Shown here piece by piece: positions 4,490-62,226 of a stretch of DNA of 64,000 bases. This stretch comes from Tubulanus polymorphus (Eukaryota > Nemertea > Palaeonemertea > Tubulaniformes > Tubulanidae), in NCBI RefSeq assembly GCF_964204645.1, contig NC_134036.1:1054001-1118000 (forward strand), in the 5' to 3' direction. How positions within the stretch are numbered: position 1 is the first letter of the stretch; each line of letters starts with the position of its first letter. The notes under the pieces are model-generated. The model was not told where the DNA came from. It searched no databases and saw only the letters and a program-made list of their open reading frames with translations. The translations under genes were made by a program, and so were the position numbers.

Positions 4490-9991
<5,502 letters not shown>

Positions 9992-18764: not shown

Positions 18765-18950
18765 GCGGTGACCATTCAGCTCTGGGAATGACCAGTCAGT
18801 TCTAGGAATGACCGTCAGCTCTGAGAATGGCCATGTCAGCTCTGGGAATGGCCAGTCAGCTCTGGGAATGGCCAGTCAGCTCTGAGAATGGCCATGTCAG
18901 CTCTGAGAATGACCAGTCAGCTCCGTGGCGACCAGTCAATTCTGCAGCTG
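18765..18950. repeat. 20-22 bp minisatellite (CAGCTCTGGGAATGGCCAGT type)
   Basis: About nine imperfect units of (GA/GG)CCA(T)GTCAGCTCTGGGAATG run in tandem. Unit length alternates between 20 and 22 bp according to whether CCAG or CCATG is used. Confidence 0.85.
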
Positions 18951-22120: not shown

Positions 22121-25100
22121 CTAACTAAGGTTCACATAAGTGTCGTGTCCTTCTAAATACAATATCATCAAATCATGCAGTAACTTGTATTGTTCCTTTA
22201 AAAACGACAAAAAGAAAGTACATCAATAAAATTACTCGTGAAAATACACAGAAATCGATTAATTTCTTACCAAATTTGGAATGAATTGAGGTCGAGTCAT
22301 TCGTAATTTTTGTATACAGTGATAGATATCGATTTGTTCGCTAGATGGCGCTTTGGAGATCAGTTCAAATGCCGCACAAAATATCCCCGTTCTCGTTGTG
22401 CTGTCCCTGTAAAATTTGCATAATCGATAAATATATAGATGATTTTTTGAATAATATTGACTGACGTTGCTAAGATACGAACATGCAATGCACAACAATA
22501 GGACTTGTGACGTGTTCTCTTGTAACTAAATTCACAAATTCAAAAAGATCCTGTACATCAGGAACTGGTTCATCCTCAGGCCATCCTAAAAATTGGATCT
22601 GACGAATCTGATGCGATTCCTGTGAGATCAAAGAAATAAGATTGATTTGATCAAATTGATCTGATCACGTCAAACTAAATAACGATGCCAAAAATGCAGC
22701 CATATTTCTCTGAACAGTAGCTACCGAAACAACTCAACATACATTCTGTTTTTGGAGGATCAAATCCCGACGAACGATGGTCTTACAGGGCAATGATACC
22801 TCCTCCACAGTGACAGCAATAGGACCAAATTTAATACTTCCAACTCCAGGCCAATAGCTTGCATATGTCTAAAATCAAAAGATATATTTTAGAAGATACC
22901 TGCAAAGCAAACAGACCTATACAAGGAAGGCAGTGCTAGACTAGGAGTAAGCCTTACCGGATCTTGTGGATATTCTTGATGCATCATTACAATGAGTTCA
23001 CAGTTATAATCAAAGATCATTTGCCAGAAATCAATAATTGTATTTGCCAATGGACTTTGTGTAGCTATAAACACGTTGGTATCTGTGATCGTCTGTTAAA
23101 AGGAAAGTATTTCAATCAGATTCTTATAACTCATCGATATCTCAACTGAAGAATATCGAGGCTTAATGCCCCCCTCCACCGGATATTCTACGGATGGCTA
23201 TTAAATCAGAATCAAACTCACGTGCACAAATGTAGCATTGATGAACCCTTTATGTGAGAGTTGCGGTTGATACTGTGCCTCAGGAAGGATGTCTTTGTAT
23301 CGAGACTTGTAAACATTGTTGAGTAGTTTGGCCACTGCTAGTGATTCCTCGTCTTGAATCGGAGTAGATGCCTTCAATACCTGTATTAGAAAAAAACTCA
23401 TTGAGAAAATCGTTTCCTCAAAACCAACTCAAGGAAGAACGATTTAATTGCTGCCATCCTGTTTTTTGTTCCAGGATCGAACCCTTCATGTCATTTTGGC
23501 CGATCTTAATACGTACAAGAAATTGTTCCTCTATTTTATCAGACACGTTTTTAGATACTGGTCGCGTTGCCTTTCTTTCCTCGTATGATTCTCTGAAACT
23601 CGTGGTCGGATATGCCACCGGTCCCAGTACCAGTTCCTCCAGTAGAATCTGGTGCACGAGAATGTACTGTTTCTGCAGGGAATGGTAATAAAACATATTG
23701 AAGAAGTTCTGGATCTTGAAAACGTGAAATAAAAGACAGTAACTTTATTAAAATTTACCATATTTTGGATCATTTCTGGTCTTTGTGGTCGTAATTTCCT
23801 AAACATGTCGAATACGTTAACGAGTCCATCTTTCTTAGCTTTTTCAAGAAGCTGCTCCGTTGCGATATAACAACCTGTCCTTCCAGCACCAGCCCTGGGA
23901 ACACAAAACAAGCCATAACATTTCTACACGTCTCCTTAGCAGTAAAGGACTGGAAGATTTCGAATACATTTACCTGCCATGAATCAGCACAAGTCCTTGA
24001 TCCGGGTCGGTAAGACGCTGTTTGATGAACTGTTGCATACGAACAACAGATGAAGCCGGGAACGGTACACCATGATCCGGCCACCCTCGATAGTGAAACA
24101 CTATCAGATTATGTGCTTGTTTGTGGCCACGCTATAAAATAAATCCAACGTTACTCATCGATAGAGACTGGTTATAGATATTGCTTATGTGATACAATGT
24201 AACATCGAAACAAAACCTCATCATAAAATGTTGTCATATCGATGTCTACACGTACGAAGTCGTTTGAAATTACAGATAACAACACTTATAACTAATGGTA
24301 AAACAAGAGTATGATCATTACCTTTTTAATCGACAGGAAATTAACCTCTGCCGGAGGCTCAGTGTGTTTTTCCATTTTCTCTGCAACTGTCACTGTAATA
24401 TCTCCATATCGACCTATTGCATCCAGTTTTGTGGGCCAATATCGATGACACTTCACCTGCAATTGGAATATGAAAAGACACATTTTTATGATTCTTCTGT
24501 TTCCACAGCACTATTCGAAAGTGTTTTTGCAACCTTCTTATCTTTGCCTTGTCCTTCAGTCAGATCAGTAAGTACAATAATAGCCGGACATTTCTCTTGC
24601 CAAATCATCCGCCAATGGTCATTGATTGTAGATGGCAATGGAGCTGAAAGAGCAAGTTAGATGAGCGTCCAAGTAACATAAACATATAGAACATGGGATA
24701 GTTAACAAGACTTACCCTGGCAAGCAATGCATATCATATGACCAGTAAATCCCTGAAAATCAAATATCTATATCAACTACAACATTATGAGCACGTGAAA
24801 AAACCTCTCAAGAACAGAAGGATTGATTCCTTACCCGAATATAGTTGGCATTGATGTAATCTGATGTTGGATCTTCACCGATTTGTTCCAGAACAACTCT
24901 AGTCGAATCATCTAGAAAAACAACACAGCTAAGTCAATAGAACGACAAAAAGTTATAGAAATAATTCTTGTATGTTCTTTTAAATGCGATAGAACGTATT
25001 TGGACATGATGAACAGGTAATACTTACAGGCCAAAATGTTTGGAAACCTGTTTTTCTCAAGATTGTCCACTTTCTCAGCGCACTCGCTCAATTCTCGTCG

Positions 25101-28100
25101 CAACTTAAGAACACTCTAAAGACAAAATAGATCCAAAAAATAATCACATGTCTTACCGACGAGCAGTTTTAACCTCCCTGCAATTTTACCTGGAATTCTT
25201 CGCTCATATTCTTCCACTCATCAGAGGTCTTCATCAAAGTGTCTCCCAACAGGTCACAAATCATAGTAGCGCCTTTAGAAGCGATTTCGTAGTGATGATC
25301 CTCGCCATCTTGCGTTTCGGGATCATGATAGATATTGAAATACGCGGAGCTTTCTATATAGACAGGATAAGAATCTTTGGTGTTAAAACATTAGGCTTCA
25401 ACTTTCAAAATCTAAAAGCTTCATTAGACGAACCTCTTGAAAATGCAGAATTTACATCAGCTGAATTTTCTTGTCTTGGGATACCCTTCAATCTCACCAA
25501 AGGTTTACCAATAATGTTATCGGAAGGTGAAATATTCTCCATGGATACATCTGCATTGTTGGATGTTTCTCTAGTTTTGAACCCACCGCGTCTGAAAGAT
25601 GTGAAAAGCTTGAGGCGACCGCGTTGTGGGTAACTGAATTAGGGGTATTTCTGTGAATAGGGGGCATCGGATGATCGTCAAATGATAATGTTATAGAGGT
25701 CGCCACTATTCACTCGTACCTCCAAACTATTAATAGAACAACGGCCACCAATAACAGTATAAGAACAGCTGCAACAACGCCACCTATTATCCCTGCATTA
25801 CTAGACGATGCTTTAACAGTGATTCTCTCTTGTTGTTCTATTGGTGGATAATGCTTAAAAGTTTCCTGGAAAGTCAAGAAGAAATGGACAATTCCAAATT
25901 GGAAACGACAATTTGCATTGAAACACTAGATGAACTCACTCCGTTATAATTGACAACGATTCCTAAAATAAAACTGTAAGATTTCCCAGTTTCTAGAGGA
26001 GCATTAAAGTAACCATTATAGTTACGTGTATCACCAACTGTAAACTCAGAGGGCACTTCCGGTGGTAGAACTGCAGTAATATAAACTGATAATCCTCGCT
26101 GTTTAGCTTCTCCGTACGAGACGTACTGTGATTGGTTGACTGCTCGCTTCCGGCGACGGTTGATTGGTCCATCGTGTTTCTTCACGATCACCTCGTAATC
26201 GCTGAAAATCAGAGAATATCCAGTTTAAAAAAATCATGCGTTATTTATGGATAAATGTATGGAGGACACTTACGTAATGTTACCAGTGTTAACACGTGTT
26301 ATTTGAAGTGTAACAGTCGTGTCTGTTACCGCTGCGTTCTTGAAAACCAGTTGAGGAATTGTTATTTTACCTGAAATATTAGTTACTTCAACTGGTGACA
26401 CGTGACATCAATGGTTACTTGGGGTTGATGTTTTAACGACTCACCTGTCCAAAATCTAACACTGGCAGGCGAGCCTTCACCTTTACTATTCGAGGAAAAA
26501 ATCGAACATTTATATTGAGTAAAAGGTATCAGTGACGTCGTTATGTCTAAAGTTGTGATGGAGCCTTCGATTTTAGATTTGTTAACTGTTTTTATCTTTG
26601 GTAAAGGTGTTGTGGAAGTTGTACTGATGGGTTCACACGTGAGCTGAAAACAGAATATGTAAGAGTAGAATAGTCTGCGCGCGAGGTTACAGTTAGTGCC
26701 TCCTACAGGTCAATACAAGTTAATTCCTACCCGATAATTGATGACGTCACAATTTGGAATGTTTGCTGCTGTCCATGTCAATGTAGTTTTCATTGTGTCC
26801 CATGTGAATGAGAAGTCGAGAGAAGCGGGAGGTTCTGGTACTGAAATAAATACCACAGATAGATTTAGTTTATACGATTCATGAATTGACATATACTTGA
26901 TGACGACGGCAACCTATAACCATCTTTAGGAGTCTAATGTATCTACAGTAAAACAAACATGTTTAACACAATTCTGTGTTTAAATTGATGATTAAGAGTT
27001 TATTAGAATGAGGGGTTTTTACCTGCACACAAAGTCTGTATAGTTAGTATTGGACTAGTCAGACTCGCAGTTGATATAAATTGATTGTTCACTAATTTCT
27101 GTAGACTAACAGCTATCTTATACCCGGTATTAGGAGTTAAACCAGTAATTGTGTGATGTGTAAGGATTCCTGCAGATTCCTGATTAGTCCAAGTGTTTTC
27201 TGATATCTTACGATAAACGACTTGATACTGAACGCTGACAGTACCACGTCCTGAATCTACTACAGAACCCGAGTAAGCTTTCCAACTGACTAATACACTG
27301 TTATTTGTCAGCGCAAATTTTCTTAATTGAGAAAACGACTTAAATTCTGAAAAAGGAAATTGGTTTGTATTAGAGTTAAACCAATATTTTATTTTCGGTC
27401 ATTTCAGATTCATATTGGTACGATATTTAGGGAATAGGGAGTGAGATTCTTAGGAATCTCTGATTCAGTGTAATATACCTGACTCGCACCACTTTCCGAT
27501 GTAATTCTGCGAACAGCCAGATTGACAGATACCACTCAAATAGTCACAACTTTCACTGTTGTTGTAACATCTACATTCAATCATACATCCAAATGAGTTC
27601 GATCCCTTACTGCAATAGCCGGGCGCTAAACATAAATTTTAAACATTTTAAAGGCGATATAAAAAAGCTAATATTTTCATTAAAAAGTAACTGAATATTT
27701 TTTAATCACTAATCGTTAGTTAAACAATTCATAAAATTGATTTATAATCTATTTTCATTCTTTACAATTTTATAAAGTTATGCAAAACTCACCGATATAT
27801 TTGAACCCGAAAACTTCTATTTCTCTTAGGTTGAGATACTCTGCTTTACCAATGTTCTTGTGATGAACGGTGACGTATCGTCCAACTATAGGACCTGGGC
27901 TGCATGGTAATGTTTTATTTGTACCACAGAGAGGGGGGCCCTGGTAAGCACATTTCTGGTTAGATGTAAAAATACTCGGGCTTTTTCCGACTCGAATCTC
28001 CAGGTTGCGCGAACGTTTTTCTGAAAAGAAAATATACAGTTGAAGAAATAATAAACTCGATGCAAAAAATTCTTTTCAAGTTGTCTTCGAATCAAATTTT

Positions 28101-42567: not shown

Positions 42568-45500
42568 CTAATTGAGGGTCATATAAGTGTCGAATCCGTG
42601 GAAGTTGAATATCACAAGGTCATGCAGCAACTTGTATTGTTCCTAAAAATGAAAAAAAGTTATATCAATAACTGACACTATCAATTCTTTCTAAGAGCAT
42701 TTTGAAGTTAATTTCTTACCAAATTTGGAATGAATTGAGGTCGTGTCATTCGTAGTTTTTGTACAGAGTGATAGATATCGATTTGCTCGCTAGATGGCAC
42801 CTTGGTGATCAGTTCAAATGCCGCACAAAATAGCCCCGTTCTCGTGGTGCTGTTCCTGTAAAATTTGCATAATCGATAAATATGTGATGGAGTTTTGAAT
42901 AAATGATTGATGTTACTAAGATACGAACATGCAATGTACAACAATAGGACTGGTCACGTGTTCTCTTGTAACTAACTTCACAAACTCGAATAGATATTGT
43001 AAATCAGGAACTGACTTATCCTCAGGCCATCCTAAAAACTGGATCTGACGAATCCGACGCGATTCCTGTAGTGAAATATAGGCTAACATGCATTGTTATG
43101 TTAAATAATGTTAATGGTAATGTTAAATAGCAATGTCAATGAAGGATAATTTCGTAAAATGCGGCCATCTTTCTCTGAACATATGGCTATCGAAAATAAA
43201 TCAACCTACATTCTGTTTTTGGAGGATCAAATCCCGACGAACGATGGTCTTACAGGGCAATTGAACTTCCTTAACGGTGATCGTAAAAGGACCGAATTTG
43301 ATACTTCCAACTGCAGGATAATAGCTTGCATATGTCTGAAATCAAAAGAAATCTTAAATCTTAGAAAAAGACATCTGCAAAGCAGTGCTAGACATTGGAG
43401 TAAGCCTTACCGGATCTTGTGGATATTCTTGATGCATCATTACGATAAGTTCACAGTTATAGTCAAAGATCATTTGCCAGAAGTCAGTAATTGTCTTTTG
43501 TAGAGGACTTTGTGTTGCTATAAACACGTTGTCATTTGTGATCGTCTGTAAAAAAGAAAGTATTTACATCAGTCAGGTTCTTACATCTTATCGATATCTC
43601 AACTAAAGAATTTCTAGGCCTTTTCTATCTCAGCCCAGATATTCCATGGATGGCTATGAAATCATAATCAAACTCACGTGCACAAATGAAGCATTGATGA
43701 ACCCTTTATGTGAGAGTTGCGGTTGATACTGTGCCTCAGGAAGGATGTCTTTGTATCGAGACTTGTTAACATTGTTGAGTAGTTTGGCCACTGCTAGTGA
43801 TTCCTCGTCTTGAATTGGAGTCGATGCCTTGAACACCTGTATTAATTAATAGAAGCTCAGTGAAAAAATTGTTTCCTCAAAACCAAACCAAGATGAAACA
43901 ATTTGGACCCCGAAGGAGGAACGATTTGGTCTCTAGTTTAACTTGGTCCGTGGATTAATTGCTGCCATCTTAATGTATGTTCTCAGGCTTCGAAACCTTC
44001 ATCTCATTTTGGCCGATCTTAATACGTACAAGAAATTGTTCCTCTATTTTATCAGACACGTTTTTAGATACTGGTCGCGTTGCCTTTCTTTCCTCGTATG
44101 ATTCTCTGAAACTCGTGGTCGTGTATGCCACTGGTCCCAGTATCAGTTCCTCCAGTAGAATCTGGTGCACGAGAATGTACTGTTTCTGAAGTAGATAGTA
44201 ATAAAGGAACACGTTGAAGTTATCCATTTTGGAAGCGTGAAATGAGAGGCAGTAACTTTGTTAAGATTTACCATATTTTGGATCATTTCTGGTCTTTGTT
44301 GTCGTAATTTCCTAAACATGTCGAATACGTTAACGAGTCCATCTTTCTTAGCTTTTTCAAGAAGCTGCTCCGTTGCGATATAACAACCTGTCCTTCCAGC
44401 ACCAGCACTGAGAACACAACACAAACAATAACATTTCTACACGTCTCCTTAACGGTAAAGGACTGGAAGATTTTCGAATTAATTTACCTGCCATGAATCA
44501 GCACAAGTCCCTGATCCGGGTCGGTAAGACGCTGTTTGATGAACTGTTGCATACGAACAACAGATGAAGCCGGGAACGGTACACCATGATCCGGCCATCC
44601 TCGATAGTGACAAACTAACAGATTATGTGCTTGTTTGTGGCCACGCTATAAAATACATCTAACGTTACTCATCGAGAGAGAGACTGGTTATAGATACTGC
44701 TTATGTGATACAATGTAACATCGAAACAAAACCTCATCATAAAATGTTGTCATATTGATGTTTACACGTATGAAGTCGTTTGAAATTACAGATAACAGCA
44801 CTTATATAGGTCACTAGGTGCCATGGTGAAACAAGAGTATGATCATTACCTTTGTAATCGATAGGAAATGAACCACTGCCGGAGGCTCAGTGTGTTTTTC
44901 CATTTTCTCTGCAACTGTCACTGTAATATCTCCATATCGACCTATTGCATCCAGTTTTGTTGGCCAATATCGATGACATTTCACCTGCAATTGGAATATG
45001 AAGAGACACATTTTTCCTAATTCTCTTGTTTACACAGAAGCATCTGAAAGCAATTTTTGCCGCCACCTTCTTATCTTTGCCTTGTCCTTCAGTAAGATCA
45101 GTAAGTACAATAATAGCCGGACATTTCTCTTGCCAAATCATCCGCCAATGGTCATTGATTGTAGATAGCAATGGAGCTGAAAGAGCAAGTTAGATGAGCG
45201 CATAAGTAACATAAACATATAAAATATGGGAAAGATAACAAGACTTACCCTGGCAAGCAATGCATATCAAATGACCAGTTAATCCCTGAAAATGAGATAT
45301 CCATATCATCTACAACATCATCATATGCACATGACAAAAACTTCTCAAGAACAGAAGGATTGATTCCTTACCCGAATATAATTGGCATTGATGTAATCTG
45401 ATGTTGGTTCTTCACCGGTTTGTTCCAGAACAACTCTAGTCGAATCATCTAGAAAAACAACACAAAATTAAGTCAATAGAACGACAAAAACCTGGAGAGA

Positions 45501-48500
45501 TGTTGTATGCGATAGAACGTATTTGGACATGATCACCAGGTAATACTTACAGGCCAATATGTTTGGAAACCTGTTTTTCTCAAGATTTTCCACTTTCTCA
45601 GCGCACTCGCTCAATCCTCGTCTCAACCTGAGAACACTCTACAGACAAAATAGATCCAAAAAATAATCCCATGTCTTACCGACGAGCAGTCCCAACTTCC
45701 CAGCAATTCTACCTGAAATTCTTCATCCATATTCTTCCACTCATCAGAGGTCTTCATTAAGGTCTCTCCCAACAGGTCACAAATCATAGTAGCGCCTTTA
45801 GAAGCGATTTCGTAGTGATGATCCTCGCCATCTTGCTTACCGTTTACTGGTCTCGGATCGTCATAGATATTGAAATACGCGGAGCTTTCTGTATAGAGAG
45901 GAACCATTAGTGTTCAAACATTGGGCTTCAACTTTTCAAAATCAAAAAGCTTTATTAGACAAACCTCTTGAAAATGTAGAATTTACAAAAGCAGTATTTT
46001 CCTGTCTTGGGATACCCTTCAATCTTGCCAATGGTTTACCAATTATTTTATCGGAAGGTGAAATATTCACTATGGATATTTCTGCATTGTGCGATGTTTC
46101 TTTAGTTTTGAATCCACCGCGTCTGGAAGATGTAAAAACGTTAAGGCATCTAATTGAGGGGTAACTCAATGAGATATTTTTGGTGAATAGAGGGGAATCG
46201 GGCCATTTTCAAATGATGAAATATATGCATTGTATTATAGAGGTCGCCACTATTCACTCGTACCTCCAAACTATAACCAGAACAACAGCCACCAATAAAA
46301 GTATTAAAACTGCTGCAACAACGCCACCTATTATCCCTGCATTATTAGACGGTGCTTTAACAGTGATTCTCTCTTGCTGTTCTATTGGTGGATAATGCCG
46401 AAATATTTCCTGAACAATGGAAAAGAATTGATTGAAGTCATCTTCGAATTGTAAACTAGAATTTATATTTAAAGACAATATGAACTCACTCCGTAATAAT
46501 TCTCAACGATTCCTAAAATAAAACTGTAAGATTTCCCAGTTTCTAGAGGAGCATTAAAGTAACCACTATAGTTACGTGTATCACCAACTATAAACTCAGA
46601 AGGCTCTTTCGGTGGTAGAAATGCTGCAGTAATATAAACTGATAATCCTCGCTGTTTAGCTTTTTCGTACGAGACGTACTGTGATTGGTTGACTGTACGA
46701 TTATGGCGACGGTTGATTGGTCCATCGTGTTTCTTCACGATCACCTCGTAACCGCTGCAAATCATCAGATAAAAATTGTTTTCTTAAATCATGCATTATT
46801 TATAGATGAAAATAAGAGGACACTTACGTAATGTTACCAGTGTTATTAACGCGTGGTATTTGAAGTGTAACAGTCGTGTCTGTTACCGCTGTCTTCTTGA
46901 TAACCAGTTTAGGAATTGTTATTTTACCTGAAATTGAAGAATAAAGCTGTTGACACGTGACTTCAATGGAAACTTGAGGTTGCTGTTTTAACAACTTACC
47001 CGTTGTCCAGAAGCTTACACTGGCAGGCAAACTTTCGCCTTTACTAGTTGAGGCAAAAATTGAACAGTTGTATTGAGTAAAAGGTATCAGTGATGTCGTT
47101 ATGTTTATAGTCGTGGTGGAGCCTTCGATTTCAGGTTTGTTGAATGTTTTTCTTTCTGATAAAGGTGTTGTGGAAGTTGAACTGATGGGTTCACACGTGA
47201 GCTGAAAACAGAAAGGAGACATGTTTAAGTATAGAGCAGGTGGTGCCCTCTACTGGTCAGGACAAGAGAATTCCTACACGATAATTAGTGATATCACCAT
47301 TGGGACGGTTTGGTGGTGTCCATGTCAATGTAGTGTTCAATGTATCCCTTGTGAATGAGAAGTCGAGAGAAGCGGGAGGTCCTGGTACTGAAATAAATAC
47401 CACAGACACATTTAACGTATACAATACAATTCTGCGATTCTCCAACATGTCGTTTTACTTACTTCCAACCTGCGTCAAAAAGTGAACTTTTTTACTCCAT
47501 GGTCCCCAACCCTTTTTGCCTTGTGCCATTACCTATGATGTATCACATTGCTTTAATTTCAATGCATTGTTGAGAAAAGCGAGATTTATAAATTCGCACC
47601 TACCTGGCAACCATACCATTTGTTTTGTGTGAGTCCAGTCACTGTTTTTGTAAGCACAGTTGGTTCAACATCCTCCCTTATAAATTCCTGAATTTGATCA
47701 GAATTATTTTTAGTGGCGTTGCCACACATGAAATTATATTTGATAATTCTTGCTAACGGAGGAACAGGAGAACTCCACGCGAATATGATACTGTTTGGAG
47801 CAGCTGATCGAGCTTCAGGGATCGGTACACCTGGAACTGAAATGTATAAACACATCAAGTTTCTCAAGGTTCATTTATGGATTCATTCCTCAGATTTGAG
47901 GACAGATGAGTTGAATTTCGAAAACTCACCAGCTTCGTCAGTTGTGAATATTTTGCTTGGAGATTCTTCACTGGAACCTTTACTGTTCACCCAGTTATAC
48001 GTCAATTCATACTCTGTAAACGGAATCAGTTTATCTATTCTGAACTGTTTATTCGATGTCGTTCCATCTTTAACAAGTTTCATCGTATCTTTCTCCAGTA
48101 ACTTGTATCTGTAATGTTTGAGAGGTCCGTGTTGGTTTTCACACGCCAAATCCTTGAAAGTGGCATCAATATAAGTGTCTGGCTTGGATACGCTATTTGG
48201 AATAGTCTCAACAGTGACATCAGCCAAGTCAGGTTTACCAGTTGGTTCTGTAACATTGAGGGAAATATTTATTGGTTACAACCGCATTTTTATATCAATC
48301 GAATTTATTTCATAAATCTACAACTAACCAGACTGAAGAGTTATCCCGGTAACAGTCCTCTTGTTTAGATCTAAGCCACCAGCCGAGGTTTCGGCCGAGA
48401 CCGTGATTTCATATTCCGCATAAGGCTTTAACCCAGTGAATACATGTTCTACAGCAGTATTTGATGAAAGTGAAATCTCTTTAGGTTCACCGCCCTGTGC

Positions 48501-51500
48501 TGGAGTCGGACAAGTTTTATATCTGAGAAGTTTGTACCACAATCTGTATTGAATGATAATTCCATTTGGTTTATCAGGTGTAGAACATGTGACTCTGAAG
48601 CCGCTGTTTGTTTGCCGGGACACAGTGAGTGACGTCACAGGTCCAGGAGCTGAAGTAAATGGAAAAATGGCAAATGCGATCAAAATATCTGTGACCAAGA
48701 GTGACGGACGGTTAACTAACCAGTGCTGGAACAGTGTAGTGGGTGTCTGGGATCCTAAGTAAGATCTTTCTTTTAAATTACCTGAGTCTCTATGATAAAA
48801 ATTTGGAAGATCTGTCTCTAATTTCAGATTACCTGCAGTCGGCGTTTGGTAATTTATAGTTTGGTTGTAGATAAACTTCTGAGTGACGTCATTCTTTACA
48901 CCAACTCTAACTTCATAATCAGTGTATGGTTCTAGTCCTGTTAGTGTGTGGCCGGTAGGTTGCGCCACAGTTGTGGTCCATGTTTGTCCGTTCAGTTGTT
49001 TATATTTGACTTGATAAACAGTTTTAGTGACGTCACACTGTAACTGCGCAGCAGTTAAAGCCTGCAACATAATGATAATTCACTACGTAGTAGTCAAATG
49101 AAACACTCTAATCGGTGTACGCTATTCGAAGAAGTCCCACAATGCGAATTGTATATGAAACAACTCATTAAAACAAAACCACAACGGCTATGGACTATAA
49201 CAGCGCACATCAGGTGAAATGACCAGAAAACCTCTTAATTATCAACGTATTAATGAACATAGATTAGATATCAGTTATCAAATGCATGACAGTGGGATTG
49301 CAAACCTTGCTTTTACAACCGACCACCAATTTGACTTTCAGAATTCGAAACTCATTTATCCTTGCAAAGACATCCATAAGAGACACATAGTTGAATCAGC
49401 CCTTTTTTGTAAACTTTCGAAATCCAACATAACTTCCATCATCCGGCCACATAATCAATTATTATCTTGAGATATCAACTCTCTACTAGATTTTGGTTAA
49501 TGTCACTTTGTGTCACACTGCCTTCTCCGTCATCTTCTACTCCTCCGGGGCCGGTTCCATAGTCAAGGCTTAAAATAAGTCTAGTCTTAAGTAATTTTTT
49601 TTCTTAAATCCTCTAAGATCGACTTAACTAAGTTAGTCTTAATTTTGCGTTCCAAAGAGTGGTCTTAGTCTAAGACCAGACTTAAGATTTAAGACCACTT
49701 TTTGGGCATAATTCTCGGAACCGGCCCCTGGTCTACTTCATTTAGTTACATAATTGTATTCATCCTTAGAATTAAATTGTGGTTTCTACGGTAACCCTGG
49801 TTGTTTTCATTTGTCATCTATTCTGTTTACATTTATTCTGACACATCGCTTTTGTTAATGTCCTGTAAGTTTATATGCCAGATGCAACGTTACTTCTGTT
49901 TTCTGGTCATTCCACCTGATAATGGCTGTTAGTCAACAGCCGAAACGTTGAGGTTCCGTTTTGATAAATTGATACATTGCATAAAAATTCGAATTTTGTG
50001 GGACTTCTTCGGTTAATTTACAATATGTCTGTATCGTGTCTCAGTGAAAGAGAAGGTTCACATGCAATTGGATTTATGTAATTCTGGTTGAGGCACACTT
50101 ACGGTCCACGCAAGTATGAGATTGGTTGTCTGGGGCCACGTGTTACTGTTCTCAACCGCTGTGGACACCACACGAACATCTTTAGGACCGTTTAATGGAT
50201 CTACAGTAAAACAAACATGTTAAACACAATTCTGTGTTTGAATTGATGATTAAGAGTTTATTAGAATGAGGGGTTTTTACCTGCACACAAAGTCTGTACA
50301 TTTAGTACTGGACTAGTCAGACTCGCAGTTGATACAAGTTGACTGTTCCCTAATTTCTGTAGTCTAACAGCTATCTTATACCCAGTATCAGGAGTTAAAC
50401 CAGTAATTGTGTGATGTGTAAGGACTCCTGCAGATTCCTGATTAGTCCAAGTGTTTTCTGATATCTTACGATAATCGACTTGATAATGGACGCTGACAGT
50501 ACCACGTCCTGAATCTACTACAGAACCCGAGTAAGCTGTCCAACTGACTTTTACACTGTAATCTGTCAGCGCATATTTTGTCAATGGAGAAAACAATTTA
50601 AATTCTGAAAAAGAAAATTGATTTGTATTGAAGTTTCATGTATATATTACTTTCGGTCATTTCTGATTCATATTGGTTACTATATTTCGGGAAAAGGAAG
50701 TGAGTTTAATTCTGAAAAACAAATCGATGTTAAATTTAGGTGAATCAAATAAAATGAAGTGTAAGGATCTTTTACTTCCGGTCATTTCTGATTCATATTG
50801 TTTAATATATTCAGGGAATAGGGAGTGAGATTCCAGGAATCTATGATTCAGTGTAATATACCTGACTCGCACCACTTTCCGATGTAATTCTGTGAACAGC
50901 CGGATTGACAGGTACCATTCAAATAGTTACAACTTTCACTGTTGTAACATGGATAACATTCAATCATACATCCAAATGAGTTCGATCCCTTACTGCAATC
51001 ACCGGGTGCTAAACAGACATTTTAAACGTGATACGTAAATATGAATTGTTTGACATTCTTCCACGAGTCAATGAATATTTCTCAATCGACCTAATTTTTG
51101 TAATCTGTATAATGTATGATCAAATAGATTTCACAGAGGTAGTTATGAAAAACTTACCGATATATTTGAACCCGATAACTTCTATTTCTGCCAGTGCGAG
51201 ATACTCTGCTTTACCAATGTTCTTGTGTTGAACGGTGACGTATTGTCCAACTATAGGACCTGTGCTGCATGCTGATGTTTTATTTTTACCACAGAGAGGG
51301 GGCCCCTGGTAAGCACATATCGGGTTAGATGTAGAAATACTTGTATTGGTGCCATATTCATTTCCAACTCGAATCTCCATGTTGCGCGCGCGTTTTTCTG
51401 AGAAAAAATTAAGAAGCTTTGAAATATCGCAGTTTACTCCGTGAAAACAAAATTAATGCGCAAAATCAGAGAAGTTTAAAATTGCTTTGAGTGCAAAACA

Positions 51501-53645
51501 ATTCTGTTCAAGTTCTTTTGAAAAATAAGTAAAGAGGCCGTGCATAAAGTACGTACGCTTGACTTGCGGTTATTTTTAACCCTCCATCCCATGTATGTTT
51601 TTGATATCTCTCCGAGTACATATGAGAGAGAACCCTGTGAAACTGAATTTGTCAGGATTCATGCCCTAAACAAGAGTGGGAAATTACCAGGAAACCCCAC
51701 GAAATATAGGAGGCATTTGTAAAAATCACATTGTGTTTCGTGCAACTGTAAATATTAACCCCTAAGGAAAAGTATGTACACTTTGAGCTTCCCTTCTACC
51801 CCCCCCCCCCCACTACAGGCGCACGGCCCATAACACAAATTTATTGTTATCGACTGAAAATTTTCGGAAAAGTTGATTCAAAATTTTCCAATGACGTATT
51901 TTTTCAGACACATTGTTGTCGAACTGACTTCATTTACAGATTATTGATTATTGATGACTCAGAGTTCGATATTTCGGTAGAGTTCAATATTTCAACTCAT
52001 CTTGTTTAAACGTAGGGTAACTGAAAACTGTATGGAACTGAGTCCGGGATATTTATTTGTGATTCCTAGAATCGATCATTAATTGTTTGATTTTGAAGAT
52101 ATTTCATCTTTTAAAGGGAGTTTATATTCAAAGAGGCTTTTCGAGTTTAAAGTTGTATTTTTTTTCTATCAGATTTGACCGAATGAAATAATCAATGAAA
52201 TAATCAACAATAATAATTTATACTCACTCCACTCACTCCACTCAGCGGTGCAACCAGCCGCGTCTGTTCTATCCCAAAGTGTAACATTATGTACCACGTA
52301 TTGAGTTCCGAGATCAATTCTAATCCAGGCGTCTTGATCCGCTTCAGTGTGACAAATCTCTTTACCACCAATCCAAGTATTCGTAGCACTTACCGTCCGA
52401 CCATCTACACATTTACTACCGGAATGGGCATAGTAAGTGGATGACATTGTAACTGTTTTACCACGAGCCACGTTTCCTACAAAACACATTTTGTGTAGAA
52501 TCAATTTAGATTCAGCAGAAAATTATTTCATGATTTTTTTCGAAACATACATTTTATTTTTGTGATACACTTTTTCTTCACGCGATGAACCAATTAGAGT
52601 CTCAGTTTATTGAGTCGCAGCAGTTCCCCGGATGTTTCATGTCTGACATTTTTATCAACGAAAATCTGAATTATTTCAATAATTTATCACGCGAGGTATT
52701 AGAGTTAATCCGTTAATCTAAAAAAACTGGGGTTCAGTAATATAAAACCTGTGATCCCTATTAACTGGAGCAGAAACCTGACCCCGGTTTACTGGAGCAG
52801 AAACAGTTGATACAGAAAACTTACCGATTTGACAAGCTGGTCCGGTCCATCCTGGCGGTGTCCAGGGATACGGAATTTTTATTGTAGACTCACATGCAGT
52901 GTTAGGATTTGGACACGTTAAAGCGCCATCTATATTCTGACCCTTTATTGGACAAACGTCCAAGGCTGTATTACTGCAATGACACTCCCAACCAGTACAA
53001 CTCTTCCCAAAACATTTTGCTGAAATTACAAGACGAAATTATTTTACCAGAACAATTCTGACAGTGACTGTTTCTTTCTGTAGTTCTTCTCTGAACTCTC
53101 CACTCCCGACAATTGATAGTTGGAATCCTGACAGTGACAGAGTTTCTTTCTGTAGTTCTTCTCTGAGCTCTCCACCCCCGACAATTGATAGTTTGAATCC
53201 TGACAGTGACAGAGTTTCTTTCTGTAGTTCTTCTCTGAGCTCTCCACCCCCGACAATTGATAGTTTGAATTCTGACAGTGACAGAGTTTCTTTCTGTAGT
53301 TCTTCTCTGAGCTCTCCACCCCCGACAATTGATAGTTTGAATCCTGACAGTGACAGAGTTTCTTTCTGTAGTTCTTCTCCGAGCTCTCCACCCCCGACAA
53401 TTGATAGTTTGAACCCTGACAGTGACAGAGTTTCTATCTGTAGTTCTTCTCCGAACTCAACATCGCCGACAATTGCCTTGAAACCGATGGCACCTCTTAG
53501 GGCCGGGTCTGTTATAATAGCAGATTTATCATTTCTACGTTTCAACTAATGAATTATTATTGATTAACTCACCTGATGTGTTTGTGATGAATAAACACAG
53601 AATGAACAACAGCAGAAAACGAAAGATGTTTCTTTCACGGTACAT
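42568..53645 (-). CDS. Gene B: receptor-type PTP with FTP lectin, EGF-like and FN3 ectodomain, 32 exons, about 1,750 aa
   Basis: Signal peptide 53573-53645; Cys-rich 52825-53019; FTP lectin 52228-52476 + 51158-51397; EGF-like 50862-51008; FN3 50281-50604, 50103-50200 + 48833-49061, 48329-48649, 47930-48247, 47600-47836, 47278-47387 + 47000-47201; stalk 46828-46927, 46490-46754; TM 46264-46409; juxtamembrane 45965-46122. D1: 45713-45888, 45551-45638, 45372-45448, 45249-45285, 45067-45176, 44850-44984, 44488-44645, 44272-44407, 44030-44185. D2: 43678-43836, 43411-43545, 43210-43335, 42929-43065, 42720-42855, 42568-42642. Summed exons give about 5,253 bp in frame. D1 has GWPDHGVP and a P-loop HGSAGAGRTG with Gly for the catalytic Cys. 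D2 has WPED and HCMNSTTRTG. B has three FN3 domains (47600-48649) that A lacks. The lectin domain suggests fucosylated-glycan binding; the ligand is unknown. Confidence 0.88.
49125..50020 (+). mobile_element. Penelope-like element fragment in an intron of gene B
   Basis: The + strand frame 49219-49470 ends in a GIY-YIG-like C-terminal pattern: HDSGIANLAF, DHQFDFQNSKLIY and HKRHIVESALF, followed by a stop. Downstream, at 49916-49948, CTGATAATGGCTGTT-AGTC-AACAGCCGAAACG forms a strong stem resembling a hammerhead core with one changed core base. Inverted copies of GAAGAAGTCCCACAA (near 49129 and 50000) bracket it. It is a 5'-truncated or decayed copy in the 49062-50102 intron. Confidence 0.55.
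53047..53480. repeat. 72-bp minisatellite in intron 1 of gene B (about 6 units)
   Basis: Same unit as at 32622-33975, but mostly 72 bp (with CCACCCCCGAC). Because 72 is divisible by three, the plus strand carries an incidental repeat frame (CSSSLSSPPPTIDSLNPDSD-like, 53064-53549), which is not called as a gene. Confidence 0.93.
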
Positions 53646-54884: not shown

Positions 54885-57800
54885 CTAATTGAGGGTCATA
54901 TAAGTGTCGAATCCGTGGAAGTTGAATATCACAAGGTCATGCAGCAACTTGTATTGTTCCTAAAAATGAAAAAAAGTAATATCAATAACTGACACTATCA
55001 ATTCTTTCTTAGAATATTTAGAATTTAATTTCGTACCAAATTTGGAATGAATTGAGGGCGTGTCATTCGTAGTTTTTGTATACACTGGTAGATATCGATT
55101 TGCTCGCTAGATGGCACCTTGGTAATCAGTTCAAACGCCGCACAAAATAGCCCCGTTCTCGTTGTGCTGTTCCTGTAAAATTTGCATAATCGATAAATAT
55201 GTGATGGTGTTTTGAATAATTGACTGACGTTGCTAAAATACGAACATGCAATGTACAACAATAGGACTGGTGACGTGTTCTCTTGTAACTAGATTCACAA
55301 ACTCGAATAGATATTGTAAATCAGGAACCGACTCATCCTCAGGCCATCCTAAAAACTGGATCTGACGAATACGACGCGATTCCTGTGAAATCAAAGAAAT
55401 AAAATTAATCTGGCCAGGCAATGTTAAATAATGTTAATGGTAATGTTAAATAGCAATGTCAAAGAAGGGTAATTCCGTAAAATGCGGCCATATTTCTCTG
55501 AACTTGGCTACCGAAAATAAATCAACATACATTCTGTTTTTGGAGGATCAAATCCCGACGAACGATGGTCTTACAGGGCAATGAAACTTCCTCCACAGTG
55601 ATCGTAAAAGGACCGAATTTAATACTTCCAGCTCCAGGCCAATAGCTTGCATATGTCTGAAATCAGAAGATGTATTCTAGCAAAGGATCCCCGACCAAAC
55701 TTTCATACTTTTAGGAGATATATTATAGATAAGGCAATGGTAGAATAGGAGTAAGCCTTACCGGATCTTGTGGATATTCTTGATGCATCATTACGATAAG
55801 TTCACAGTTATAGTCAAAGATCATTTGCCAGAAGTCAGTAATTGTCTTTTGTAGAGGACTTTGTGTAGCTATAAACACGTTTTCATTTGTGATCGTCTGT
55901 AAAAAGGAAAGTAATTTCAATCAATCAGATTCTTACAACTCATGGATATCTCAACTGAAGAATTTCTAGGCCTAATGCCCCCTTTTCTCAGCCCAGATAT
56001 TCCATGGATGGCTATGAAATCATAATCAAACTCACGTGCACAAAAGAGGCATTAATGAACCCTTTATGTGAGAGTTGCGGTTGATACTGTGCCTCGGGAA
56101 GGATGTCTTTGTATCGAGACTTGTAAACATTGTTGAGTAGTTTGGCCACTGCTAGTGATTCCTCGTCTTGAATCGGAGTCGATGCCTTCAACACCTGCAT
56201 TAGAAAACAACTCATCGAGAAAATGTTTTCCTTAAAAAAAAACTAAGGAAGAACGATTTGGTCTCTAGTTTAATAAGGTCAGTGGATTCATTGCTGCCAT
56301 CTTAATGTATGTTCTCAGGCTTCGGGCCCTTCATCTCATTTTGGCCGATCTTAATACGTACAAGAAATTGTTCCTCTATTTTATCAGACACGTTTTTAGA
56401 TACAGGACGCGTTGCCTTTCTTTCCTCGTATGATTCTCTGAAACTCGTGGTCGGGTATGCCACCGGTCCCAGTATCAGTTCCTCCAGTAGAATCTGGTGC
56501 ACGAGAATGTACTGTTTCTGTGGTAAATGGTAATAAAACATATTGAAGAAGTTCTGGATCTTGAAAACGTGAAATGAGAGGCAGTAACTTTATTAAGATT
56601 TACCATGTTTTGGATCATTTCTGGTCTTTGTTGACGGAGTTTCCTAAACATGTCGAATACGTTAACGAGTCCATCTTTCTTAGCTTTTTCAAGAAGCTGC
56701 TCCGTTGCGATATAACAACCTGTCCTTCCAGCACCAGCACTGAGAACACAACACAAGCCGTAACATTCCTTAACGTCCCCTTAACGGTAAAGGACTGGAA
56801 GATTTCGAATTAATTTACCTGCCATGAATCAGCACAAGTCCCTGATCCGGGTCGGTAAGACGCTGTTTGATGAACTGTTGCATACGAACAACAGATGAAG
56901 CCGGGAACGGTACACCATGATCCGGCCATCCTCGATAGTGACAAACTAACAGATTATGTGCTTGTTTGTGGCCACGCTATAAAATAAATGAAACGTTACT
57001 CATCGAGAGAGACTGGTTATAGACAATACTGATGTCAAACAATCTAACATCAAAACCCATCAGAACTCATTAACTATGTCGGAATACTGTAGTGAAACAA
57101 TGTAACAGCGAAACGAAACCTCATCATAAAATGTTGTTATAATTATCATATCGATGTATACACGTATGAAGTCGTTTGAAATTACAGATAACAGCACTTA
57201 TATAGGTCACTAGATGCCATGGTAAAACAAGAGTATGATCATACCTTTGTAATCGACAGGAAATGAACCACTGCCGGAGGCTCAGTGTGTTTTTCCATTT
57301 TCTCTGCAACTGTCACTGTAATATCTCCATATCGACCTTTTGTATTCAGTTTTGTGGGCCAATATCGATGACACTTCACCTGCAATTGGAATATGAAAAG
57401 ACACATTTTTATGATTCTTCTGTTTCCACAGCACTATTCGAAAGTGTTTTTGCAACCTTCATTTCTTTGCCATGTCCTTCAGTCAGATCGGTGAGTACAA
57501 TAATAGCCGGACATTTCTCTTGCCAAATCATCCGCCAATGGTCGTTGATCGTACGGTTCCTGAACTTCGCTGAAAAAGCTGAAACACTGAAACGCTGAAT
57601 CGCTGAAATAAAAACGCTGAAATTTCAGGGAATTTCCGAAAAACGCCGAAATTTCAGGGAATTCCCGAAAAACGCTGAAATCGTGCTAGGTACCGACAAT
57701 ACACGTTTTGAAATAATATCCGGGCCGGTATCCGCTGCCGAGTCCTGAACCGTCTTTTAGTCTCCACCTTCGGTTACAGAGACATGCATGGGCAGTATGT

Positions 57801-58112
57801 GTGGAGTATACTTCTAGAGGGCCACTTGTTGAACAAATTAATTCGCTTGAAATCCGGATTTTTAATGCATACAGGCAGCATGATGAGGAAAACCCTTTCA
57901 CAAACCGTGCAAGCCAACTTAAACACTATGCTCAATATTCCAAGAATATGGTTTACTTCTATCGTTCATGTATAAAACAGGATTATAAGCAACTTTTCTT
58001 TTGTCAACACGTTGATGGGCGACGGACTATGGTATTCTCTGAAGGAGGTAAATTAAATTTGACAGCTAGTTATATAAATGATGCAGCTTTTGGACAAAAG
58101 GGATCTAACTAA
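57801..58112 (+). CDS. Unassigned 103-aa open frame inside the transposon
   Basis: An ATG-started frame just inside the left TIR, with KHYAQYSKNMVYFYRSCIKQ and FFCQHVDGRRTMVFSEGGKL. It is not low-complexity and not a shadow of another gene. I do not recognise it. It may be a transposase fragment, a captured exon, or chance. The transposon's other internal frames are short. Confidence 0.25.
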   Translation: MEYTSRGPLVEQINSLEIRIFNAYRQHDEENPFTNRASQLKHYAQYSKNMVYFYRSCIKQDYKQLFFCQHVDGRRTMVFSEGGKLNLTASYINDAAFGQKGSN

Positions 58113-59094
58113 ATGTCTTTTTAATTCACCGTGGAATGGAATGGATTGACGCCAATGACATGCAGTAGGCCCCTACTTATAGGTCATACTAATTAGCGTC
58201 AACCAATTAATCTAAATCGGGCAAACCATTCAACAACTGTAATTTATTTGCTGTGTTGTGATAATAATAGGTTTTTTTTTTTTTAATGACATACCAACTG
58301 TTAGAAAAATGTACCGATTCTTATTTTTAGACTACTACGGTATCTATAAAAGGAGGAGTCATAGATAAAGTTGATTTGCTCAGCTGGACACACTTCTTGT
58401 CAAGTACATCATCTCAAGTATTGGGTGTTTTGTAAGTTTGATTTCAGTATTTATTTACTAAGTGCTGTTCCCTCGGGCCTCAGTGCTTTCAAACTAGGCC
58501 CACCCCATAGGCTATATCTCCAGAGTGTGTTAGCCACTATTCTTTTATTTCCTACTTTAAATGCACTTTTTTTCTATTTTTAGACTCGGGCTAAGAATGT
58601 GCAAATTTGAGATACTGAGAAATCAGATGGCACTAGTTAACTTGAACTGCGAAATTTGCAGCAGGATAGCTGAACGACACAATTTTTAAAAACAAAATGG
58701 CTATTCGAATGCTATTTCAGTGATAACTTGATTCAACCAGAGAGAAATAAGTCAATTGGGGATGTACAGTACACCCACTTTACTTCCCCGTTTTCCTGGT
58801 ACCAAATATTTTATCTTAAGCTAAGCAATATTCTAAGGTATGCTAGTGAATTTCATTAGAATATAAAGCAATGGAACCAGAATTCAAGCCCGAGTTAAGC
58901 GAACTATTGATTCTGATATAATGTAAGAACTGATTTCTTTTGTGTATTCTTATAATGTGTTAAGTATTATTTTAAGCTGTTAAATAATATAATTAGACAA
59001 ACGTCAAATTATTGGATCTTTCTTGTTGACTCGTTTAATTTTGTGAGTTTAGAGTTCCAGTCAATCCACAATGTGCAGTGCCTAGCCTTCATCT

Positions 59095-59325
59095 AGTACT
59101 AAAGCCAAGCCTGTGTATGGGAAAACGTTGTTCGACTCTCATAAGCCAGACAAATAAAAACTTGCAATACATTGCAGATAGAAGTCTCCAGCAAGTAGAC
59201 AGAGAAAGTAAACCAGGTTTTACCCCGTACCCTACCCGGCATCTTCACCTGTCAAGGGATTCGAACCCACTACACTAAAGCTGTTCTCCGAACCGCTTGA
59301 CCTCGAGTCGTTACTAGCCGACCAG
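59095..59325 (-). repeat. tRNA-derived SINE candidate within the transposon
   Basis: On the minus strand, an A-box-like GAGGTCAAGCGGTTCGG (59291-59308) is followed by a B-box GTGGGTTCGAATCCCTTG (59253-59270). A non-tRNA body with GATGCCGGGTAGGGTACGGG follows. This layout is that of a tRNA-derived SINE. The 3' end is not defined. Confidence 0.55.
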
Positions 59326-59329
59326 AATC

Positions 59330-59640
59330 AGGTCGGGCCAATCACAGCGCTTGTTACAAACGACATTTGGCATCTATGGAATTTCCCGGTAAATGGACCA
59401 ATCAGCGAACACGTAGCGAAAACGGAAGTATTGTCGCGTGTTGATATATGACGTCATTCGCAAAAACGCCGGTAATGAAATCGCGCGTCGTGAGGCCAGG
59501 GGGCAGGTGGAAGCGAGTTTGGGAGCGATACTGGTCTCCTGGCAAGCGAGGATGCCTACCCGGGAACGAAAGACACTCCAAGACTCCTTCCTTGAAGAGA
59601 TTGTAGAAATATGGCACCCAATCGTAGTAATGCTAAGTAC
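59330..59640. promoter_or_regulatory. Promoter-like segment inside the transposon
   Basis: Less AT-rich and CpG-bearing compared with its surroundings, with CCAAT boxes (GCCAATCACA near 59338, ACCAATCAGC near 59398) and a perfect CRE, TGACGTCA, near 59449. Short open frames exist on both strands but none is recognised. It could be the element's own promoter or a captured genomic piece. Confidence 0.35.
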
Positions 59641-62226
59641 AGTATACTATGACGGTTGAACCTTTATTCACACCAAAATAGAATCAAAGTAGTCATAAGT
59701 TCCATGATAGCACTTAATTTGGGTTATCAGGTTCAGCCTTACTAGCTGTACTTTCATTCAGCTACTACTTTTGTATGAGACTTGGCAATGATAAGTTGGA
59801 AGAAATCACCAAATATAAGAAAAAATATTGAGAATTAATATTACTGTAATTAAGAATTTATTCAAATGAAGTGATAATTTCATTGTTAGATCGTACCGGT
59901 ATATGCGCATAAAACAAAAAACACATCTAACAATCCACGCAATCCGCAATCGATCAAGTCGAACATGACGACGACCTCAAGGCATGTCTCTGTAACCGAA
60001 GGTAGAGTCTAAAAGACGGTTCAGGACTCGGCAGCGGACACCGGCCCGGAAAGAATTTCAAAACGTGTATTGTCGGTACCTAGCACGATTTCAGCGTTTT
60101 TCGGGAATTCCCTGAAATTTCGGCGTTTTTCGGAAATTCCCTGAAATTTCAGCGTTTTTATTTCAGCGTTTCAGCTTTTCAGTGTTTCAGCTTTTTCAGC
60201 GAAGTTCAGGAACCGTTGATCGTAGATGGCAATGGAGCTGAAAGAGCAACCTACATGAGCGTAACATAAAAGAAATCAATTATGAGAAAGGTAACGAGAC
60301 TTACCCTGGCAAGCAATGCATATCACATGACCAGTTAATCCCTGAAAATGAAATATCCACATCATCTACAACAACATTAAAGCACGTGACAAACTTCTTA
60401 AGAACAGAAGGATTGATTTCTTACCCGAATGTAATTGGCATTAATGTAATCTGACGTTGGATCTTCGCCGATTTGTTCCAGAACAACTCTAGTCGAATCA
60501 TCTAGAAAAACAACACAAAATTATCTCAATAGAATGACATAAACTAATACAATAGAAAATATTAAAAAAGCAAAATCAATGGAAGTCAATAGACCTAATA
60601 GAGATGTTGCACTTGTACAAGGCAAGTCTTGTAAATACGACAGAACTTATGTAAACATGATGAACAGGTAATACCTACAGGCCAATATGTTTTGAAACCT
60701 GTTTTTCTTAACATTTTCCACTTTCTCAGCGCAGGCGCTCAATCCACGTCTCAACTTGAGAACACTCTACAGACAAAATAGATCCAAAAGATTGACGTAC
60801 ATGCTACCAGCAAGCCCCAAAGTGCCTTAAAACAAAATAGATCCTGAACATAATCACATGTCTTGCCAATGCGCAGTCCCAACTTCCCAGCAATCCTACC
60901 TGAAATTCTTCATTCATATTCTTCCACTCATCAGAGGTCTTCATTAAGGTCTCTCCCAACAGGTCACAAATCATAATAGCGCCTTTAGAAGCGATGTCGT
61001 AATGATGATCCACGCCATCTTGCTTACCGTGTACTGCTCTCGGATTATCATAGATATTGTAATACGCGGAGCTTTCTATATGGAGAGGAGTCACGAGTCA
61101 TTATAGTGTTAAAACATTGGGCTCCAAATACAAAAGCTTCATTAGACAAACCTATTGATAATGTAGAATTTACATAAGCAGTATTTCCTTTCCTTAGGAC
61201 ACCTCTCACTTTCAATCTTGCCAAAAATTTACCAATACTTTTATCAGAAATATACTCCATGGATACTTCTGCATTGTTCGATGTTTCTTTAGTTTTGAAT
61301 CCACCGCGTCTGGAAGATGTGAAATAGTAAAGGCGTCGAAATTGTGGGAACCTGAATGAGGGGGTCTCGGGGAATCGGACGATCGCTGAATGATGAAATA
61401 TTTGCATTGAATTAAAGAGGTCGCCACTATTCACTCGTACCTCCAAACTATAAATAGAACCACAGACACCAATAACAGTATTAGAACAGCTGCAACAACG
61501 CCACCTATTATTCCTGTAATACCCCACGGTGCCTTAACAATGATTCTCTCTTGCTGTTCTATTGGTGGATAATGCCGAAACGTTTCCTGAACAATGAACA
61601 AGAAAAGGCTTGAGGCTTTCAAATTGTAAATTACAATGTGTATGAAAGACGCATTTAAACTTTGTTTTTTTTTCGTGGAATTATCGAATCCAGATTCTGT
61701 TATTATCATTATTGTTCTTATTATTATTATAATCATTAATCATTATTATCAATTATCAAACACAAGATGAACTCACTCCGTTACAATTCTCAACGACTCC
61801 TAAAATAAAACTGTAAGATTTCCCAGTTTCTAGAGGAGCATTGAAGTAACCACTATAGTTTCGTGTATCACCAACTGTAAACTCAGAGGGCACTTCCGGT
61901 GGTAGAACTGCAGTAATATAAACTGATAATCCTCGCTGTTTAGCTTCTCCGTACGAGACGTACTGTGATTGGTTGACTGCACGCTTCCGGCGACGGTTGA
62001 TTAGTCCATCGTGTTTCTTCACGATCACCTCGTAACCGCTGCAATTCACAGAAAATATTTTTCTTTTAAATCACGCGTTATTTGTGGATAAAGGTTTTTA
62101 GGACACTTACGTAATGTTACCAGTGTTAACACGTGTTATTCGAAGTGTAACAGTCGTGTTTGTTATCGCTGTCTTCTTGACAACCAGTTGAGGAATTGTA
62201 ATTTTACCTGAAATATCAGCAATAGA

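Follow-up and report, generated by a model that had tools for sequence, protein, structure and literature searches.

Receptor tyrosine phosphatases with a lectin-like/FN3 ectodomain and glycine in place of the D1 nucleophile cysteine: a candidate multigene family of receptor pseudophosphatases

Genes A, B and C, which lie in the window (the whole stretch of 64,000 nucleotides that was analysed, G000:C12:1054001-1118000, within a 268 Mb animal assembly), encode what their domain composition identifies as two-domain receptor tyrosine phosphatases (RPTPs) with lectin-like/FN3 ectodomains. In all three, the codon of the nucleophile cysteine of the first phosphatase domain (D1) is replaced by a glycine codon, GGC. 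They belong to a larger family of at least 17 genes, best read as receptor pseudophosphatases of the lectin/FN3 type, with D1 putatively inactivated by the type of substitution known from STYX.

The cytoplasmic part of these proteins is matched by Y_phosphatase (PF00102) in two stretches with an E-value of 1e-121, and it is preceded by a transmembrane exon, as is characteristic of two-domain RPTPs. D1 and D2 sequences form separate clades. The departure from this class lies in the P-loop of D1, in which the catalytic HCX5R is substituted by HG(GGC)SAGAGRTG in 17 copies. HGSAGAGR agrees with the HGX5R signature of STYX; a dual-specificity type domain is not the best match, as DSPc reaches only 1e-11 in Pfam versus the value given above for PF00102. 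The ectodomain was scanned with Pfam exon by exon, on part of the exons. An F5/8 type C / F-lectin fold was recognized above cut-off (PF22633, E 4e-8), the membrane-proximal FN3 domain matches Fn3_PTPRU (PF23144, E 4e-11), and the other exons scanned gave F5/8C and FN3 matches and none to MAM or Ig.

The cytoplasmic part of gene B is split into 15 exons, of which nine encode D1 and six encode D2 (Table 1). The interval 44272-44645, which had been flagged in the first-pass annotation, coincides exactly with its D1 exons 8 and 7, and the P-loop spans their junction: exon 7 ends with CAT GGC AG followed by gtaaat, and exon 8 starts after tcag with T GCT GGT, giving H-G-S-A-G-A-G-R-T-G. The junctions of the cytoplasmic exons are GT/AG except for two ends, which were set by the sequence conserved in all copies: the start of D1 exon 1 was moved one base later relative to the drawn model, and D1 exon 9 more likely ends at ~44030, at a donor GTACGT kept in all copies. 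The annotation had attributed a shared Cys-to-Gly change in D1 to the three genes, and intact frames to A and B. Both statements stand, as all three genes carry GGC and read HGSAGAGRTG over the same exon junction; genes A and B have no frameshift or stop across the 15 cytoplasmic exons. Gene C is changed in exon 5, where the insertion into intron 4 of a high-copy repeat (at least 40 genomic copies, 90-100% identity) took out the acceptor and the first codons. An AG at about 57570 would preserve the frame of this exon (CQAKFRNRTIND).

Table 1. Positions in the window of genes A, B and C and of their parts, and genomic locations of the family members by D1 nucleophile codon
Feature	Position	Strand	Description
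Gene A, D1 + D2 exons	22121..25354	-	D1 P-loop HG (GGC), exon 7 at 23974-24131; frames open
Gene B, D2 domain, 6 exons + stop codon	42568..43836	-	KSRY, WPE, HCMNSTTRTG, EQY
Gene B, D1 domain, 9 exons	43997..45889	-	KNRF, IACQ, CHRYWP, WPD, HGSAGAGRTG, KQY
Gene B, D1 exon 8	44272..44407	-	P-loop second half SAGAGRTG + next helix; tblastn/splice model
Gene B, D1 exon 7	44488..44645	-	WPD loop GWPDHG + P-loop first half HG, GGC replacing the Cys codon
Gene B, transmembrane exon + juxtamembrane exon	45945..46502 (approximate)	-	open frames GGVVAAVLILLLVAVVLVIVW and RRGGFKTKETSHN...
Gene B, ectodomain exons	46472..53038	-	Cys-rich, F5/8 type C (fucolectin-like), EGF-like, FN3 repeats, PTPRU-type membrane-proximal FN3
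Gene C, D1 + D2 exons	54885..61076	-	D1 P-loop HG (GGC), exons 56819-56976 + 56604-56739, the same exons (7 / 8) as 44488-44645 / 44272-44407 of gene B; exon 5 altered
Dispersed high-copy repeat insert, gene C intron 4	57570..60304 (bounds approximate)	.	replaces exon 5 start
Gly/GGC copies	A, B, C; 11 at C12:1.32-1.47 Mb; C12:2.51 Mb; C9:4.32 Mb; C7:6.505 Mb		C7:6.505 Mb truncated
Cys/TGC copies	trio C12:0.28-0.31 Mb; trio C12:4.02/9.25/10.63 Mb; C10:9.38 Mb		

Some other elements of the window deserve a description. Between 27000 and 39900, upstream of the membrane exon of gene A, there are three sets of Cys-rich/F5/8C/EGF-like/FN3 ectodomain exons, which could thus represent either a repeated ectodomain of gene A or separate module-only genes. 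A minisatellite with a unit of 71-72 bp occurs at 32623-33975 (19 copies) and 53054-53475 (six copies), with copies 95-96% alike. It sits 5' of the ectodomain modules, in the interval between A and B and in gene B, and all three of its minus-strand frames are open. Further minisatellite arrays are found in the left part of the window, at 5975-6173, 7367-7685, 9099-9301 and 18769-18923.

The distribution of glycine and cysteine was studied by whole-genome PF00102 and exon searches, after which 40 loci were fetched. Apart from A, B and C, the Gly copies comprise a second cluster of 11 and three dispersed ones; together they are distributed over three chromosomes, and the identity of the GGC codon in all 17 of them rules out chance or an assembly error as its origin. 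Fourteen have all 15 cytoplasmic exons open, with neither frameshift nor stop, and in a fifteenth one (L016, C12:1.347-1.351 Mb) doubt is confined to exons 1 and 4. A sister trio at C12:0.28-0.31 Mb, on the same chromosome as the array, has HC with open D1 exons. As this trio and the subfamily at C12:4.02/9.25/10.63 Mb keep TGC, cysteine is ancestral and glycine derived and older than the array duplication, a polarity judged from subfamilies inside one genome. This bears out the earlier proposal that the change preceded the duplications, the 14 open copies all having Gly and the outgroup subfamilies Cys, and makes the event wider than A/B/C. Outside the family, the PTP loci with a readable P-loop have cysteine in all cases except for the intronless gene at C7:6.352 Mb, a count that covers all but a few of the loci. 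A search of every copy for an alternative, Cys-bearing exon 7 found none.

Two other features of the copies were observed. In D1 exon 8, every Gly copy also carries a second derived change, nine residues past the lost cysteine, RTGCY versus RTGSY in the sisters. The copies L011-L013 are 84-90% alike to gene B in exons 7 and 9 and D2 exons 4-5, and only about 57-71% in D1 exon 8 and D2 exons 1 and 3, which suggests conversion between subfamilies or an exchange of exons among them.

D1 is under purifying selection that is as strong as that on D2 and similar to that on D1 of the Cys-bearing sisters. By the Nei-Gojobori method, applied to the 14 open Gly copies, dN/dS is 0.287 for D1 (bootstrap 95% 0.22-0.36) and 0.259 for D2 (bootstrap 0.18-0.37), whereas codon models give an omega of 0.39 and about 0.36-0.39, respectively; omega = 1 is rejected for both domains (2dlnL 76.2 and 76.9). 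The core of D1 (exons 3-9) has an omega of 0.33 in the Gly copies vs. 0.32 in the Cys-bearing trio (exons 3 and 5-9), thus relaxation is not indicated. Exon 8, which encodes the rest of the P-loop, has the lowest dN/dS among the larger D1 exons (0.15). Among the 19 pocket columns of D1 (KNRF, Q, WPD, P-loop and Q-loop) only one varies, compared to 85 of 277 elsewhere (Fisher p 0.011), a value that is indicative only, as the copies are partly non-independent through conversion. Gene conversion leaves fewer independent observations and may make the conservation look stronger than it is. The first-pass annotation had held that D1 was apparently maintained without catalysis and had named a dN/dS near 1 in D1 as evidence against this. 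Such a value was not obtained, the estimates being 0.29 for D1 vs. 0.26 for D2, so maintenance is supported; the loss of catalysis would follow from the substitution itself. The combination of a lost essential residue with a kept fold and purifying selection places this domain, by its sequence, among the putative PTP pseudophosphatases.

A thiolate cysteine is the nucleophile in all classical PTPs. Having lost it, D1 should not hydrolyse phosphotyrosine, and with the Arg, WPD, Gln and KNR(F) loop kept, a phosphate-binding pocket devoid of its nucleophile is expected. The following route may be proposed. One T-to-G transversion, TGC to GGC, would have occurred at the nucleophile codon of D1 in the array ancestor, in which D2 would have been impaired beforehand (WPE, MDSTT P-loop), and GGC would then have spread via duplication and gene conversion. 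The resulting D1 would still fold and could bind phosphotyrosine proteins or partner receptors, in the manner of a natural counterpart of laboratory trapping mutants. The receptors would then work as decoys or scaffolds under ligand control, shielding phosphotyrosine substrates or concentrating them, the competitors being the Cys-bearing sister receptors at C12:0.28-0.31 Mb. We think that non-enzymatic decoys or scaffolds competing with the Cys sisters are the best overall explanation for the Gly-D1 receptors, with a probability of roughly 0.6.

A different role of D1 would be purely structural, i.e. stabilization of D2, dimerization or partner docking, with phosphotyrosine binding being without a role. 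RPTPs share a conserved D1-D2 orientation with conserved head-to-toe contacts (PMC2638020), and the pocket of PTPRU-D1 is occluded while the receptor nonetheless binds substrates (PMC7320164), both of which are compatible with this role. We consider it rather unlikely, given that the pocket residues are more conserved than other D1 positions, though some of them are also structural. The decoy or scaffold reading could also be carried further, to a diversified surface repertoire of ligand-gated phosphotyrosine sponges that would oppose the few active sisters, as paired receptors of the immune or recognition type made of phosphatases and pseudophosphatases; we regard this extension as speculative and, on the sequences at hand, unlikely.

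The history of the substitution is complicated by the copy at C10:9.38 Mb (L030), which has HC with the codon TGC and nests inside the Gly group behind a branch supported 98/95 in a D1 tree built with this codon removed. A Cys-bearing copy within the A/B/C clade had been named beforehand as evidence against a shared loss. Formally such a copy does exist, but it is a pseudogene: exon 3 contains a stop, and D1 exon 1 as well as D2 exons 3, 5 and 6 are frameshifted. Its nearest neighbour shifts along the sequence, a sign of conversion that marks the copy as mosaic. The Cys-bearing trio was ruled out as the conversion donor of exon 7 in this copy, because the flanking residues are of the array type, LTDPDQGLVLIHC, and not LTEQNQGPILIHC. 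Either the cysteine was regained by back mutation in a dead copy, or it is an ancestral residue within a mosaic; the sequence is compatible with both. On the second view, cysteine might have been lost repeatedly, or glycine spread by conversion, while this copy retained the ancestral state. We find this distinctly unlikely: a single Gly clade is not rejected (AU test, p-AU 0.08), and the Gly copy at C12:2.51 Mb is less similar to the remaining copies than the C10 copy is (mean identity 0.83 vs. 0.88), so that a back mutation in a dead gene is the simpler account.

D2 has to be considered as a possible seat of the activity. It keeps the Cys and Arg of CX5R in every copy with a readable exon, the Tyr of KSRY in nearly all copies and the Gln of the Q loop, and dN/dS of its P-loop exon is as low as 0.135, which would suit a hand-over of catalysis to D2 with the two domains swapping roles. 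Nevertheless, such a hand-over is very unlikely. The general acid loop of D2 reads WPE (WSE in one copy), a motif shared by several D2 domains whose activity is negligible (PMC2638020), and its P-loop is HCM(D/N)STTR, in which M(D/N)STT stands in place of SAGxG and brings in an acidic or polar residue. The same motif is present in the sister genes with cysteine in D1, hence it is not a compensatory change. D2 is thus probably inactive like D1, and with it the whole receptor, as in vertebrate PTPRU. Finally, the recent decay of a young pseudogenising cluster, with glycine as an early lesion spread by gene conversion, would fit the broken copies (C10:9.38 Mb, C57 and C7:6.505 Mb), the altered gene C and the clear mosaicism among copies, but is highly improbable in view of 14 copies with 15 open exons, dN/dS of about 0.3 in both domains and the rejection of omega = 1 with a 2dlnL of 76.

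The first-pass annotation called the loss of cysteine in D1 unusual, which is right for the known animal RPTPs; vertebrate PTPRU, with its inactive D1, and STYX, with its Cys-to-Gly change, are precedents. Among human RPTPs, PTPRU is described as the only one with both domains inactive. This vertebrate R2B receptor PTP resembles the present family in the inactivity of both PTP domains (predicted for the receptors studied here), the kept D1-type fold and a similar membrane-proximal FN3 (PF23144). It binds substrates without activity and can compete with active paralogues, as formulated in a decoy model (PMC7320164). However, PTPRU retains the D1 cysteine and is inactive via WPE, GSRQ and a P-loop threonine, whereas the family has WPD, Arg and Gly for Cys; in addition, PTPRU is encoded by one gene and has a MAM-Ig-FN3 ectodomain, and here there are many genes with F5/8C-FN3. 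STYX, a DUSP-family pseudophosphatase, shows the identical substitution, HCX5R to HGX5R; Gly-to-Cys restores its activity, and it acts by substrate competition (PMC9464862). Unlike the classical receptor PTPs studied here, it is a soluble protein of the dual-specificity type. A PTP fold without activity is also retained in the receptor IA-2 (PTPRN), which has one PTP domain and other substitutions, and in the D2 domains of RPTPs, D2 and not D1 being the dead domain of standard RPTPs. Among lophotrochozoans, the part considered here of the report on the mollusc Gigantopelta aegis describes expanded fucolectin genes and PTPRK-annotated genes (PMC7895826), a likeness by annotation that does not cover catalytic residues. 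In the open-access literature we found no described invertebrate RPTP family with a dead D1.

Two other changes in RPTPs of this genome are relevant. In the subfamily with cysteine at C12:4.02/9.25/10.63 Mb, the copies at 9.25 and 10.63 Mb (L027 and L028) read HCSSGCGWTG in D1 exon 8, which is open. The P-loop Arg is thus changed to Trp, by sequence a further D1 inactivation in a sister subfamily; their relative at 4.02 Mb (L026) keeps this Arg. The intronless gene at C7:6.352 Mb (L001, G000:C7:6352250-6353824) encodes an FN3-TM-D1-D2 receptor PTP in an open frame of 837 codons, with HGGTGVSRS and WPP for WPD in D1 and HCVDGAGRS in D2. Its D1 falls outside the lectin-RPTP group in the tree (100/99), so its Cys-to-Gly change would be independent, with the caveat of long branches.

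In a whole multigene family, D1 catalysis thus appears to have been lost through the simplest of changes, with selection on D1 matching that in the catalytic sisters. In our opinion, this may constitute a natural experiment on the roles of RPTP D1 domains beyond catalysis, in which the catalytic sisters in the same genome provide the controls, and to which the two additional D1 changes, presumably inactivating as well, would add.
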